A DNA stretch of 64,000 nt from a virus: positions 124,001 to 188,000 of IMG/VR virus record IMGVR_UViG_3300030041_000009. One strand, written 5' to 3'. A model generated the notes under the pieces. That model did no database searches and had not been told where the DNA came from. It worked only from the letters and a program-made list of their open reading frames with translations. Numbering within the stretch: position 1 is the first letter of the stretch; each line of letters starts with the position of its first letter. Made by a program: the position numbers and the translations under genes. Shown piece after piece: positions 6,997 to 22,319 of the stretch.

Positions 6997-9294
6997 ATGA
7001 AATTAGAAGAAATTGTATCAAATAGTAGTGGAATATCATTAATAACTCATTCAAAAGCAGTTAAAAAAATAGGAATGATGTTATCAAAAAAGTTATCATT
7101 AAATGAAGACCTTGAAAAACAAATTTCAATAGCTTGTTTATTGCATGATTTAGGTAAATGTAATTTAGATTTTCAAAATTATATAAAATCAAAAAGTAAA
7201 ACAATTTCTTTTATTAATTCTCCAATATTTCATCATGAAATAAGTTGGGCATTTGTGTCATGTATTTTAAATAATGATGAATATAGATATTCTTTAGATT
7301 CAATATATTGGCATCATTCTAAACCAAAAATAAATTATATAAGTAATGATAATATATCATTAATTTTAAGTGATATGTGTGATGATGATAAAAAAAATAT
7401 TTTATCAATGTATAATTTTTTAATGAATGAAAATATATTATTTGAAGATATAAATTTTGAAAAATCTATCAATACTCCATTATATTATTTAAATGAACCA
7501 AATAGTTTAACAAATTCTAAAAATTCATTAGTAAGATCTTGTGTTATAACTGCTGATAGACTTGTATCAGCATCAGATCAAGAAAAAATATTGTATGATG
7601 ATGATTATTGTGAAGAATTAATAAACAATTTATCATATAAAGATACTAAAGTATATAGCAAACCTATTAATTATGATTCTATTCGTTTTGATTCTCAAGT
7701 TGATTACGCAAATCAATCATTAAATAATCGAACTACAATAATGAAAGCCCCAGCCGGTTTTGGTAAAACATTATTGGGGTTATTATGGTCATTAAAATCT
7801 AATAAAAAATTAATATGGGTATGCCCTAGAAATATTATTGCTGAAAATGTATATAATTCTGTTTTACAAGAATTAAAAAATATATCAGTTGAATTATCAG
7901 TTGAGTTATATTTAACAGGTAATAGACAGAAAACAAATAATGAAAACACTAAAGAATTTACATCTGATATTATAATAACTAATATAGATAATTATTTATC
8001 TCCTAATGTGAATAATTCTATTAGAAATAGATTATTTGTTATTAATTATTGTGATGTGATTTTTGATGAATATCATGAATTAATTAAAGATGATGCACTA
8101 TTTGCATGTTTTATTAATATCATGAAATCTAGACATATGTTAACAAATAGTCACACATTATTATTAAGTGCTACACAAACTATAATGGAATATTTATGGG
8201 ATGGAACAAATATAGATAAAAAAACTAAAATTTTACCAAATAAAAATTCTCATTATACATCTGCACATAATGGTAAATATTTGATTAATTATATTGATGA
8301 TATTGATACAATAACTAATGAAAAAGATTCAGTTGTTATTATGAATTCTATTTCAAATTCTCAAAGATTATATTGTTATAAAAAAGGCGATATTTTAATA
8401 CATAGTAGATATATAGATTCTGATAAAGAAAAAATAATGAATAAAATTATTCATTTATATGGCAAAGAAAATAAAAATATTTTGAATAAAGATAGTATTA
8501 TATCAGCACCTATTTTACAAGCATCTATGGATATATCATTTTTAAATTTAACAGATAGTGTGATGTCTCCAGAAACTACTTTACAAAGAATAGGTCGATG
8601 TGATAGGTGGGGACATTTTTATTATAAAAAAAATAAAACTCCAAAAATAAATTTATTTTTTAATGAAAATAAAAGTGAATTTAGAAACTCAGAAAACACT
8701 AGTATATCAAATCAATATGATTTAGAATTAAATAAATTATGGATTTCATTTATTAAAAAACATATTATTAACGGAAATTTATATTCAATAAATGAATTAT
8801 ATGAATATTATAATATGTTTAATAATGAAAATAATGAAAATTTAAAAAAGTTTATCACATCTAAACTAAAAACAAGTTTATTAAATTTATGTAAAATTGA
8901 ACCGTATAAGATGATGGAGAAATCTAAAAACAATACAATTAAAAATAATAATACTAAATTAAGAAGTGGAGGAGATATATATTGTATATATAAATATGCA
9001 AAAAAAAGACAAATGACGGACTCATTTAGTGTAGATTTTAATCGAGATATTAAAAAATCTGAACCAATAACAGGTTTAGATAGTAAAATTAAGAGAATAA
9101 TAAAGAATATTATAAAAATTAAGGATGATAGATTTTTTTATAATAAATATTCGTTATTTAAAAATAATCAATATACTTTACCTATACTTAAAGATTATGC
9201 CAGGAAAAAAGAAACCCCATATATTGCATTTGATAAAGTTTATTGTGAAAAATTAGGATTAGTAAAAAATGATATTTACGATAATTTAATATAA
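6997..9294 (+). CDS. cas3: Cas3 HD nuclease-helicase
   Basis: This 765-residue protein has an N-terminal HD domain: H18, the LLHDLGK motif at 48-54, HHE near 84 and WHH near 108. A SF2 helicase follows, with Walker A APAGFGKT (about 251-258), motif II DEYH (about 356), motif III LSATQT (about 390) and motif VI QRIGRCDR (about 530). Cas3 unwinds and degrades the DNA strand exposed by Cascade, so this makes the system DNA-targeting. It lies directly downstream of the array on the same strand. The nuclease and ATPase residues look intact. Confidence 0.92.
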   Translation: MKLEEIVSNSSGISLITHSKAVKKIGMMLSKKLSLNEDLEKQISIACLLHDLGKCNLDFQNYIKSKSKTISFINSPIFHHEISWAFVSCILNNDEYRYSLDSIYWHHSKPKINYISNDNISLILSDMCDDDKKNILSMYNFLMNENILFEDINFEKSINTPLYYLNEPNSLTNSKNSLVRSCVITADRLVSASDQEKILYDDDYCEELINNLSYKDTKVYSKPINYDSIRFDSQVDYANQSLNNRTTIMKAPAGFGKTLLGLLWSLKSNKKLIWVCPRNIIAENVYNSVLQELKNISVELSVELYLTGNRQKTNNENTKEFTSDIIITNIDNYLSPNVNNSIRNRLFVINYCDVIFDEYHELIKDDALFACFINIMKSRHMLTNSHTLLLSATQTIMEYLWDGTNIDKKTKILPNKNSHYTSAHNGKYLINYIDDIDTITNEKDSVVIMNSISNSQRLYCYKKGDILIHSRYIDSDKEKIMNKIIHLYGKENKNILNKDSIISAPILQASMDISFLNLTDSVMSPETTLQRIGRCDRWGHFYYKKNKTPKINLFFNENKSEFRNSENTSISNQYDLELNKLWISFIKKHIINGNLYSINELYEYYNMFNNENNENLKKFITSKLKTSLLNLCKIEPYKMMEKSKNNTIKNNNTKLRSGGDIYCIYKYAKKRQMTDSFSVDFNRDIKKSEPITGLDSKIKRIIKNIIKIKDDRFFYNKYSLFKNNQYTLPILKDYARKKETPYIAFDKVYCEKLGLVKNDIYDNLI

Positions 9295-19792: not shown

Positions 19793-20233
19793 TTATATGT
19801 TAAATTTATTTGTTGTTTTATATATTTCAATTCCTCCAACTTCATTAATACTATTTAATAATTCTGCTATATTTTCTGTGTCACCAACATATCCAGGATT
19901 AGAATTTTCATCTAAATTGTTAATTGGAAATCCTTCAATATATAATTCATCTTCTAATCCAGAACTTTCCATACTCCAAATTTTATATGTTTTCCCAAAT
20001 ATACTAACTATAGCATAAGCACCTTGATATAAATCGTGTCCTCTAATATCTTTTATTTTTAATATAGTATCATTATCTAAATTTGAAATTATATAATCTA
20101 ATCTTTCTTCTAAATACCTAATTAAACTTGCTTCTTCACTATCATCATCAGGATTATCTTTAACATAGTTCCAATTTACATCTCTACTCCATTCTCCTGT
20201 TTCGTATATTTTAAATGTTTTTAAATGTTTCAT
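19793..20233 (-). CDS. Tag-1 protein
   Basis: 146 residues. N-tag MKHLKTFKIYE, C-tag KTTNKFNI. The middle contains IKDIRGHDLYQGAYAIVSIFGKTYKIW, a likely beta-rich fold. It is first in a three-gene tagged run read leftward. The function is unknown. Confidence 0.8.
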   Translation of the reverse strand: MKHLKTFKIYETGEWSRDVNWNYVKDNPDDDSEEASLIRYLEERLDYIISNLDNDTILKIKDIRGHDLYQGAYAIVSIFGKTYKIWSMESSGLEDELYIEGFPINNLDENSNPGYVGDTENIAELLNSINEVGGIEIYKTTNKFNI

Positions 20234-20263
20234 AAAAATATTTTTTATTTATATATAAAAAAC

Positions 20264-20294
20264 TTGCACAATAAAAATATTTATATTATCTTTG
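20264..20294 (+). promoter_or_regulatory. Promoter of structured RNA copy A
   Basis: TTG at 20264 and TATCTTTG at 20287-20294, 20 nt apart, match the Bacteroidota consensus. No ORF follows, so the product is probably an RNA. Confidence 0.75.
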
Positions 20295-20299
20295 TATTT

Positions 20300-20425
20300 G
20301 ATTTTAATATCTATTTGTTGTGAAGCAAGAGATATTTAATTTTTAATTTTATTAGTTATATTGTTTTATAAAAAACTCTCTTGCTGTTTATCAGTAAGAG
20401 AGTTTAATAAAATTAAAATATTAAA
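20300..20425 (+). ncRNA. Candidate structured RNA, copy A
   Basis: No ORF is present. A 5' hairpin (ATATCT ... AGATAT) encloses an inner TTTGTT/AGCAAG stem closed by a GTGA tetraloop. A 3' hairpin, CTCTCTTGCTG with CAGTAAGAGAG, is flanked by AATTTTATTA and TAATAAAATT, which can close it as an outer stem. The same layout recurs at 20506-20635 with compensatory changes, so structure is conserved. The function is unknown; an sRNA or a leader RNA are both possible. Confidence 0.65.
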
Positions 20426-20469
20426 AGACATCAATATATAATATTTTTATAAATAAAATCATTTTCCTA

Positions 20470-20500
20470 TTGTAGGAATAAAATATTTTACTTATCTTTG
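20470..20500 (+). promoter_or_regulatory. Promoter of structured RNA copy B
   Basis: TTG at 20470 and TATCTTTG at 20493-20500 give the same 20-nt spacing as copy A. It probably also transcribes the gene at 20646, the Gln-rich leader and the tRNAs. Confidence 0.75.
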
Positions 20501-20505
20501 GATTT

Positions 20506-20635
20506 CTTTTTACATCTACAATTTGCTGTGAAGCAAAAGATGTTTCTTTTTGTTAAATTTTGTTAGTTGTATTACTTAGTTTTTAGAAAGACTTCCTTAC
20601 TGATATATTCAGTAAGGAAGTTTAATAAATTAAAA
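20506..20635 (+). ncRNA. Candidate structured RNA, copy B
   Basis: The 5' hairpin ACATCT ... AGATGT encloses a perfect TTTGCT-GTGA-AGCAAA stem-loop. The 3' hairpin is ACTTCCTTACTGA with TTCAGTAAGGAAGT. Relative to copy A, T-A becomes C-G in the outer 5' stem, and two adjacent pairs in the 3' hairpin swap C-G for T-A and T-A for C-G. It ends 10 nt before an ATG, so it could act as the 5' leader of the gene at 20646. Confidence 0.65.
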
Positions 20636-20645
20636 AATTAAAAAT

Positions 20646-20849
20646 ATGAAAGAATTAATAGATGATACTCAGGTTCCAGATAGAGGATATTATTATTTAT
20701 TAGATTGGAATGAAGCCGATAGATGGGAAACTATGCTAAGATTATTTGATAAAAAAAGATTATGTGATTTGGAATTACATGAATATATTCAATTATTCGA
20801 AATTGCAACAAAAAAAGATTTAGAAAATTTAAAAATAGAAAAAACTTAA
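20646..20849 (+). CDS. Small uncharacterised protein downstream of the structured RNA
   Basis: 67 residues with PDRGYYYLLDWNEADRWETML and an amphipathic C-terminal helix. It lies between structured RNA copy B and the Gln-rich leader ORF on the same strand, probably in one transcript. No family was recognised. Confidence 0.65.
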   Translation: MKELIDDTQVPDRGYYYLLDWNEADRWETMLRLFDKKRLCDLELHEYIQLFEIATKKDLENLKIEKT

Positions 20850-20895
20850 TAAAATTATATTACTATATACATTACAAACAAAAATTAAAATTCTT

Positions 20896-20949
20896 ATGAA
20901 TAATAATATTTCAAACATGATTCAGCAACAACAACAAACTTACGTTTGA
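20896..20949 (+). CDS. 17-residue leader peptide with five consecutive Gln codons
   Basis: The ORF reads MNNNISNMIQQQQQTYV. The Gln run is CAG CAA CAA CAA CAA (20923-20937). The TGA stop (20947-20949) overlaps the first arm of the following hairpin. Two tRNA genes with Gln anticodons (TTG for CAA and CTG for CAG) lie about 95 nt downstream. The layout is that of an attenuation leader peptide whose translation rate reports Gln-tRNA charging. Translation is not proven. Confidence 0.6.
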   Translation: MNNNISNMIQQQQQTYV

Positions 20950-21033
20950 TTGGGTTAGAGTCATGTCTGTTTTTTACCCAATCCTGAAATGGTTTGGGTT
21001 TTTTTGTGCCCAACATTTTATGTTGGGTTTTTT
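20947..21033 (+). promoter_or_regulatory. Predicted Gln-responsive transcription attenuator
   Basis: Five complementary segments occur in order: 1 GATTGGGT (20948-20955), 2 ACCCAATCC (20976-20984), 3 GGTTTGGGT (20991-20999), 4 CCCAACAT (21009-21016), 5 ATGTTGGG (21020-21027). 1:2 pair over 8 bp. 2:3 form a hairpin followed by T7, and 4:5 a hairpin followed by T6; both look like intrinsic terminators. 3:4 can pair over 5 bp. A ribosome at the leader stop would cover segment 1 and allow 2:3 termination. A ribosome stalled at Gln codons would leave 1 free, giving 1:2, then 3:4, and readthrough to the tRNAs. Confidence 0.6.
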
Positions 21034-21043
21034 GTTAATATAC

Positions 21044-21129
21044 TGCCTTGTGATGGAATTGGCTAAACATTTCAGTCTTTGAAACTGATGCTCATTGTGA
21101 GCTTGTGGGTTCGAACCCCACCAAGGCGA
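21044..21129 (+). tRNA. Class II tRNA with anticodon TTG (Gln codon CAA)
   Basis: Acceptor 21044-21050 pairs with 21122-21128 (a U-G pair at position 1, then six Watson-Crick pairs). D stem ATG/CAT (21053-21055, 21068-21070) with GG in the loop. Anticodon stem TCAGT/ACTGA with loop CTTTGAA. Long variable arm GCTCA-TTG-TGAGC (21090-21102). T arm GTGGG-TTCGAAC-CCCAC. Discriminator A; CCA not encoded. The anticodon 21079-21081 is TTG. A long variable arm is typical of Leu, Ser and Tyr tRNAs, not Gln, so the charging identity is open. Confidence 0.85.
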
Positions 21130-21135
21130 CAATAT

Positions 21136-21206
21136 TCTTTCTTGATGTAATGATAGCATATCATTTTCTGACAATGAATGACTAAGTTCAAATCTTAGAG
21201 AAAGAA
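21136..21206 (+). tRNA. tRNA-Gln, anticodon CTG
   Basis: Acceptor TCTTTCT (21136-21142) pairs with AGAAAGA (21199-21205). The D stem is ATGT/GCAT. The anticodon stem is TCATT/AATGA with loop TTCTGAC, giving CTG at 21168-21170. The variable loop has 4 nt and the T arm is CTAAG-TTCAAAT-CTTAG. Discriminator A; CCA not encoded. The D loop lacks the usual GG, so some divergence is evident. It lies 6 nt after the class II tRNA. Confidence 0.8.
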
Positions 21207-21207
21207 C

Positions 21208-21244
21208 AAAAAAATCCTGAAATTTAAATTTCAGGATTTTTTTT
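21208..21244 (+). terminator. Rho-independent terminator after the tRNAs (bidirectional)
   Basis: AATCCTGAAATTT pairs with AAATTTCAGGATT, flanked by A and T runs. On the minus strand it covers the end of the gene at 21224. The 11-mer AATCCTGAAAT also occurs in segment 2 of the attenuator (20980-20990). Confidence 0.85.
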
Positions 21245-21502
21245 ATAATCATTATAGAATTTAAGATATTCTTCATCTGTTTGTTTATTAAATTTCATTT
21301 GGTACATTAGAATTTGTCCTAATTCAGCTCCAGATAATTCACCTGAATCAAATCCAAGTTCTTTTATAATTTGGAAGATAGTTTTATTTTTCATATCTTC
21401 TTTACTTGTAGTTCTAAATTTAAACTCTAATTCAATTGCTAATTTTTTAATTTTTTCAGGAATGTTATATTCGAAAAATTCATAAGTTTTAATAAATTTC
21501 AT
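21224..21502 (-). CDS. Tag-1-like protein (N-tag only)
   Basis: 92 residues beginning MKFIKTYEFFEYNIPEKIKK, a typical N-tag, but lacking the KFN[IL] ending; it stops with NDYKKNPEI inside the terminator hairpin. The C-terminus may have been lost when the tRNA block was placed next to it. It is helical with unknown function. Confidence 0.7.
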   Translation of the reverse strand: MKFIKTYEFFEYNIPEKIKKLAIELEFKFRTTSKEDMKNKTIFQIIKELGFDSGELSGAELGQILMYQMKFNKQTDEEYLKFYNDYKKNPEI

Positions 21503-21608
21503 GCTTTATTTTTTTTATGTTATATATAAAAAATAAGTACTAAGTTTTTTATCTTCACAGATATACTAACTTAGTACTTATTCAACAAACATTATTATGA
21601 TATAGAAA

Positions 21609-22319
21609 TTATGTGGTTTTGCTATATTTATCAATTATGCTTTTTATATTAAGGTTAAAAAATTTTTCAGAAAATTCTTCAATATTACTATATTTTTTTA
21701 ATCTATTTAATATCATTTGCTTAATATCTATTTTTAAAGTGTCAGAATTTTCTATTTTATTAATATCTGATAATGACATTGTTAACGATTTTAAAAAAAT
21801 ATTAAGTTTTTCTATTTCTGAATAACTTTCAAAATCATTTGGAGTACGAGATATTTTTATAATATTTCCGTTTATTTGATTTAATTTTAATTCTCTTTGC
21901 TCTCTTATACTAACTTCACAAAAATTATATGTTGATAATTTATTTTTTATTCCTTTAACTTTTATATAATCATTAGAATATTGTTTTTCTACGTAGTATA
22001 TTTCATTTTCTTTAATTAATTTTGAGCTATATCTACTTCTAATATATTGTCCAACATAATTAATATTATAACTATCTAAATATTTATCAGTAATACGAAA
22101 CAATTCATGATTAATTAATAATTCATCATTTTCTAATTTGAATTTTTCTGCAGAATAAGTACTCAATCCTTTTATAACAACACGCTTATTTGTTTCATTA
22201 TCATATTGATATAAATTAATAGCATAATATATTCCACCTTTTATTAAATTTATTGCATCTTTTGTATCAATACAAATTACTTTAATTGGAGAATTTATTA
22301 ATTTTATTTGATCATTCAT
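21609..22319 (-). CDS. Uncharacterised 236-residue protein
   Basis: A Lys/Asn/Ile-rich protein with a predicted beta-rich N-terminal half (IKVICIDTKDAINLIKGGIYYAINLY) and a helical C-terminal half. No family was recognised. It overlaps the upstream gene by 1 nt, so the minus-strand genes from 23731 down to here are probably one operon. Confidence 0.7.
   Translation of the reverse strand: MNDQIKLINSPIKVICIDTKDAINLIKGGIYYAINLYQYDNETNKRVVIKGLSTYSAEKFKLENDELLINHELFRITDKYLDSYNINYVGQYIRSRYSSKLIKENEIYYVEKQYSNDYIKVKGIKNKLSTYNFCEVSIREQRELKLNQINGNIIKISRTPNDFESYSEIEKLNIFLKSLTMSLSDINKIENSDTLKIDIKQMILNRLKKYSNIEEFSEKFFNLNIKSIIDKYSKTT

Follow-up and report, generated by a model that had tools for sequence, protein, structure and literature searches.

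In the trp, his, leu, ilv, and thr attenuators, a short leader ORF carrying regulatory codons is followed by mutually exclusive antiterminator and terminator structures, with an intrinsic terminator standing before the regulated genes. The phage units described here share this layout, and ribosome stalling is likewise predicted to give readthrough, but their targets are tRNA arrays, their codons match the encoded tRNAs and not a biosynthetic product, a single leader covers up to about 12 amino acids, and several independent leaders occur per genome. T-box riboswitches also sense the state of tRNAs and control transcription of translation-related genes, but they act through direct RNA-tRNA contact and have no leader peptide. 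Phage tRNAs are reported to counter tRNA-cleaving defenses (van den Berg 2023, PMC10264068; retron evasion, PMC11555353; PARIS, PMC12409363), and those tRNAs share with the present arrays a plausible purpose, the replacement of tRNAs lost to host immunity. The arrays reported here appear inducible by their own shortage, whereas van den Berg 2023 (PMC10264068) makes no mention of attenuation, leader, or terminator. Huge phages of the same kind, of the 735-kb class, were described with their tRNA counts and synthetases by Al-Shayeb 2020 (PMC7162821), where leaders, attenuation, and terminators go unmentioned. In open PMC full text, which covers few subscription papers and preprints, no account was found of phage tRNA arrays being attenuated through leader peptides; priority is unproven, and the earlier note on this DNA, made from its letters alone, had likewise known of no described case. 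On the observed anatomy, amino acid matching, complementarity with alternative pairing, geometry, and conservation of these units, we propose, with a probability of about 0.9, that ribosome-mediated attenuation resembling that of trp and his makes phage tRNA arrays inducible by a shortage of their own tRNAs.

The window analyzed is a stretch of 64 kb, bases 124001 to 188000 of a 256-kb IMG/VR virus record, a jumbo-phage contig. On its plus strand, a 17-codon leader ORF at 20896-20949 encodes MNNNISNMIQQQQQTYV* (ATG AAT AAT AAT ATT TCA AAC ATG ATT CAG CAA CAA CAA CAA ACT TAC GTT TGA) and has homologous leaders in the contigs G010, G011, G012, and G014. Its regulatory codons are CAG CAA CAA CAA CAA (20923-20937, plus strand); nowhere else in the 256-kb genome, whatever the frame, do five or more CAR codons stand in a row. 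Five alternating segments follow on the same strand: segment 1 (GATTGGGT, 20948-20955), the 5' strand of the antiterminator, overlapping the stop codon TGA at 20947-20949; segment 2 (ACCCAATC, 20976-20983), which can pair with segment 1 (antiterminator) or segment 3 (terminator); segment 3 (GGTTTGGGT, 20991-20999), which runs into a U-tract to 21005 and belongs to terminator 1; segment 4 (GCCCAACAT, 21008-21016), the 5' half of terminator 2; and segment 5 (ATGTTGGGT, 21020-21028), again followed by a U-tract, with terminator 2 (4:5) spanning 21008-21033. In MFE folds without a ribosome, segment 1 is sequestered by a leader helix whose 5' strand is CATGATTC at 20916-20923 and whose 3' strand is GAGTCATG at 20958-20965 (plus strand). 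Two plus-strand tRNA-Gln genes, with anticodons TTG (21044-21130) and CTG (21136-21207), are called by ARAGORN with the concurrence of the Rfam tRNA model. They are followed by a closing hairpin with A/T runs on its flanks (21208-21243, no strand assigned), which precedes a convergent minus-strand gene at 21224-21502. The ORF with its Gln run, the five segments with two T-run terminators, the stop codon overlap, and both anticodons had been read from the letters by the earlier note, and all are confirmed. Beyond these two genes, the only tRNA that ARAGORN reports in the 256-kb genome has a CTA anticodon. Terminator-like sites number 3 in 2.5 kb, compared with 0.2 +/- 0.5 in shuffled sequence. 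A T-box riboswitch was considered and rejected, as the Rfam hits listed for 20000-22000 at E <= 5 include no T-box.

The RNA of 20897-21040 folds with z = -4.1. With a ribosome footprint imposed from the A-site codon to +12, P(1:2) was 0.77-0.80 for simulated stalls at Gln codon 10, 12, or 14, against a P(2:3) of 0.14-0.18; in an RNA ending just past terminator 1, P(1:2) fell to 0.00 and P(2:3) rose to ~0.84 when the ribosome was placed at the stop codon or left out. The predicted front edge lies no further than 20947 for any of the five Gln codons in the A site, and for the last of them it is at 20947, one base short of segment 1, while at the stop codon it reaches 20959 and covers segment 1 fully. 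The claim that a terminating ribosome would hide segment 1 and a Gln stall would leave it free is supported by footprint folding. With the ribosome stalled, 3:4 is favored (0.73) as long as segment 5 has yet to be transcribed; in the full-length RNA at equilibrium, 4:5 is favored (P 0.73-0.88) even with 1:2 formed. As modeled, the first switch (1:2 versus 2:3) is well supported and the second (3:4 versus 4:5) is only kinetically plausible, so the earlier proposal of alternating pairs is supported for the former, whereas 3:4 would prevail only until segment 5 emerges.

According to this model, RNA polymerase would transcribe the leader while a ribosome reads the short ORF. When Gln-tRNA is plentiful, the ribosome would reach the stop codon and mask segment 1, 2:3 and then 4:5 would form, and the tRNAs would remain unmade. 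When Gln-tRNA is short, the ribosome would stall on CAG or CAA and leave segment 1 free to pair with segment 2, which would preclude 2:3 and let transcription proceed into the tRNA-Gln genes. An untranslated leader would also terminate, because the upstream helix hides segment 1. Leader translation, stalling at hungry codons, and increased readthrough upon stalling would together render the unit self-limiting: a lack of the array's own products would lead to its transcription. The element in the window would be the one-amino-acid case of a design in which the leader of each giant-phage array is written in the codons that its tRNAs read.

Relatives of the element are consistent with this reading. 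The Gln leader, the alternating segments, and two to four tRNA-Gln genes are kept in four diverged lineages, and the relatives that retain the tRNAs have lost neither the Gln run nor the segments. Among the diverged phages recovered by a pattern scan of viral contigs, G010 (330 kb) carries four tRNA-Gln; in G009, G012, and G013, ARAGORN finds two, and two further Gln-anticodon tRNAs are recognizable by eye in the same array; and G011 (308 kb) has three, separate from the genome's 37 other tRNAs. In G014, the leader MKNLSNMVQQQQM is followed by a single terminator, a small protein gene, and then three tRNA-Gln; this contig came from a second CAR-run scan with CAG at the end, whose other returns were mostly coding repeats. 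The segment 1-2-3 pattern alone, with codons ignored, occurs at 14 loci in 2.9 million viral contigs, 12 of which are the Gln-leader/tRNA-Gln element, while in 84,980 prokaryote genomes its 8 matches include none with a tRNA behind, i.e., no cellular homologue by this pattern. The leader-hairpin-tRNA arrangement that the earlier note proposed to look for in related phages is found, and terminator 4:5 displays compensatory changes (CAACAT/ATGTTG, CAACTT/AAGTTG, CAAAT/ATTTG); the core 1:2:3 pairing, by contrast, is nearly invariant in the Gln family, so that covariation tells little there. The helix hiding segment 1 is also retained, with U-G changed to U-A. Separate Gln leaders stand immediately 5' of tRNA-Gln arrays in LR745206 and LR756502 (QQIQQQQ and QQQQQQQ). 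Near-identical bog contigs (L002-L008) are 100% identical over the element where covered and thus add no evolutionary information, and a blastn comparison with named phages and plasmids gave no useful match for the region. As a separate observation, the four tRNA-Gln of G010 (217514-217848; L187/L059) are all different, and the copies within this one array are strongly divergent in sequence, as might be expected under nuclease evasion.

Leaders for other amino acids in other phages lend further support to the Gln attenuator reading. In G010, G011, and G014, other tRNA clusters also lie behind a short ORF and a terminator, with the ORF made of the cluster's amino acids, and related huge phages with such units range from 308 to 735 kb and include Prevotella Lak phages. 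In all, leader/terminator/tRNA units were observed in G010, G011, G014, G016, G020, LR756500-502, LR756504, LR745206, Lak-A2, and Lak-B4. A 1060-residue protein of G000 shows 29-40% identity to proteins of unannotated 462-735-kb huge phages and ~26% to those of Prevotella Lak phages. The leader LSLCLSLSLSL precedes Leu/Ser/Cys tRNAs, and KKQQYKQYQPQYK precedes Tyr/Gln/Lys tRNAs. G011 has MRNVSKHSKSFKSFWSHRSG.. before Lys, Phe, Ser, Trp, and His tRNAs, and G014 has MRNYCYILEM..CDYRNININDEDTMRTG before Glu, Tyr, Asp, Cys, Met, Ile, Asn, and Arg tRNAs. Further huge-phage leaders are MLFNSNISVKFTPAPAVAFRRGTGTGTGTC.. before Arg/Thr/Val/Ala/Gly/Pro tRNAs, MNNILHINLLNSLCLLGIKLIG, with all six Leu codons present, before five tRNA-Leu, MKTVNTNIAIVEIAVIGGAEEGV.. 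before Glu/Ala/Ile/Val/Gly tRNAs, MKTIAMIIRMRIIR.. before Arg/Ile/Met tRNAs, and MKTINVNIAPVNPQPQDQDP.. before Pro/Asp tRNAs, the last followed by a second leader, MTTTQQIQQQQINQTD, and then Gln. Lak-A2 and Lak-B4 share ..HPVCGMVHMFPCGGGRPM.. before His/Pro/Arg/Cys/Met tRNAs (plus Gly in B4). Some tRNA arrays (PAU, L263) have no such leader.

The matching was quantified with a rule blind to amino acids: wherever a strong terminator precedes a tRNA, the longest ORF that starts with ATG, has 12-60 codons, and ends close to that terminator is chosen as the leader. Over 40 units, the mean match z was 3.31, compared with 0.01 +/- 0.26 when arrays were permuted among leaders (0 of 20,000 permutations; ~12 SD), a control for composition and not for the rule's limits, which were fixed after the first leaders had been seen. 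With 22 nonredundant units, one per leader family and with failures kept, z was 3.42 against 0.02 +/- 0.31 (again 0 of 20,000). The rule missed the window's own leader, where tandem terminators exceed its stop-to-stem limit, and chose wrong ORFs at G010 and L080. In 35 of 36 leaders, the 5' arm of the terminator finds a better partner near the 3' end of the ORF than in dinucleotide shuffles (p <= 0.05), with a mean z of -3.5. Array-matched codons make up 488 of 744 (66%) where a stall would free segment 1 but 139 of 457 (30%) later, with a Fisher p of 9e-33 that treats as independent codons which, inside one leader, are not, and in a count that merges the amino acids of adjacent arrays for a few units. 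The choice of Ile codon (ATA or ATT/ATC) tracks the tRNA-Ile anticodon (p = 0.005), and no significant relation was found between Arg codon choice and anticodon (p = 0.25).

Eleven tRNA-rich phages, chosen as outgroup controls and put through the same rule, yielded three positives. T4, T5, XacN1, RaK2, LP65, A511, and Aeh1 have no leader-terminator-tRNA unit under this rule, and KVP40 has one uninformative ORF, ahead of tRNAs for nearly all amino acids. In Bacillus phage G, MMKCSWFEFDTDFTDVFYCEYTFYSLYTF.. precedes Cys, Asp, Phe, Tyr, Glu, Thr, Ser, and Trp tRNAs (binomial p 2e-6), with a weak antiterminator (p = 0.058). Agrobacterium phage Atu_ph07 displays a leader match (p 0.002) and an 8-pair antiterminator (p 0.052). 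Caulobacter phage CcrColossus carries ..YRNNVRQIRVRQFN.. before Val, Ile, Gln, Asn, and Arg tRNAs (p 1e-4), with a perfect 11-pair antiterminator duplex, and its element has homologues in 46 Caulobacter and Brevundimonas phage records. Within this family, phiCbK and CcrKarma have arrays that begin with tRNA-Phe, with no tRNA-Asn in the stretch examined, and the leader RQFVRQIQVV, and Kikimora and Bajun have tRNA-Asn, lack tRNA-Phe, and carry the leader RQNVQNIRVV. Judged from these sequences, the Phe/Asn exchange in leader and array is a natural swap experiment favoring the attenuation model.

What such attenuators would be for is a separate matter. They might sense amino acid starvation, the phage tRNAs being a by-product of a low-amino-acid response, and such leaders classically report charged tRNA in amino acid operons (PMC1183508). 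Since leaders sense charged tRNA, starvation and tRNA loss would look the same to them. We nevertheless consider this unlikely: an amino acid shortage cannot be relieved by tRNAs, the genes under control here, and leaders combine up to 8-12 unrelated amino acids, per array and not per biosynthetic pathway. As the regulated products are tRNAs, loss of tRNA is the sensible trigger, and the purpose is probably, if more speculatively, the replacement of host tRNAs destroyed or inactivated during infection.

The polarity of the response could also be the reverse, with stalling causing termination and smooth translation readthrough, or the leader could act via Rho or mRNA stability. Placed at the stop codon, a ribosome would mask segment 1 fully in 13 of the 40 units (including the Gln leaders tested, which like the window's fit classical masking), partially in 12, and not at all in 15; in these 15, segment 1 lies upstream of the parked ribosome, so termination under plenty would need timing or extra leader structure. 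This leaves such schemes some room, but the intrinsic terminators are strong, and both the location of matched codons with respect to segment 1 and the folding under ribosome footprints fit a stall that gives readthrough, and we regard these schemes as improbable. Very little can be said for the hairpins being ordinary terminators or insulators of the upstream operon, with incidental small ORFs and tRNAs that have their own promoter: terminators are common between phage operons, and a same-strand gene (20646-20849) ends 46 nt 5' of the leader, but leaders match arrays far past permutation, antiterminator segments are present in 35 of 36 leaders, and the terminator-to-first-tRNA gap is at most 25 nt in 16 of 38 units (minimum 6), which leaves little space for a private promoter. 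Equally far-fetched are leader peptides that act as functional small proteins whose translation merely requires those tRNAs, since their sequence varies with array content and between phages, their codon runs are of low complexity, and their composition changes at the antiterminator boundary, even though leaders of one clade have some N-terminal residues in common and that of phage G is annotated as gp86. This gp86 (NC_023719 58381-58515), listed as a hypothetical protein, appears to be the leader peptide of the phage G tRNA array.

The role of phage tRNAs is a long-standing question. Arrays that look inducible by a lack of their own tRNAs point to a shortage arising during infection, not to constant codon compensation; Gln accounts for only 2.3% of codons in the window's genome, and relatives carry up to four tRNA-Gln under the Gln leader. 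We tentatively suggest, at a little short of even odds, that giant phages whose hosts are unrelated (Bacteroidota, Caulobacter/Brevundimonas, Agrobacterium, and Bacillus) carry multiplexed tRNA-shortage sensors that would detect, codon by codon, tRNAs destroyed by defenses and switch on replacements. The design looks like a general, and apparently undescribed, viral way to restock missing tRNAs, and would extend leader-peptide attenuation to a new target class. Cultured phages such as phiCbK, CcrColossus, and phage G now allow a direct test of what these tRNAs are for, and the leader's sequence signature lets tRNA arrays be grouped by trigger.

Several other features were observed. In the window's genome, the tRNA with the amber-suppressor anticodon CTA (L019:960-1031, minus strand; see also L260:1400-1888) has upstream of it a peptidyl-tRNA-hydrolase-like ORF (~L019:1380-1054, minus strand) with a QGAHAS motif, a single in-frame TAG (LLDHK*VQTW), and a terminator-like hairpin across its stop codon; the TAG is kept in the relative G013. 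With a TAG lying ahead of the tRNA that reads it, a stop codon would here take the self-sensing role that sense codons have in the leaders. CTA tRNAs recur in these huge phages, at times paired (L242, L258, L270, and G011 101083-101154). Recoding of TAG was rejected: TAG readthrough does not raise coding density, and TAG ends 16 of 357 ORFs. At 20300-20640, the window contains two similar noncoding units, in both of which a GTGAAGCAA(A/G)AGAT motif lies ahead of a hairpin (CTCTCTTGCTG..CAGTAAGAGAG and CTTCCTTACTG..CAGTAAGGAAG); there is also a weak, subthreshold Rfam match to Lacto-rpoB. Finally, positions 6997-9294 encode a Cas3-like phage protein with HD, DEAD helicase, and Cas3 C-terminal domains.
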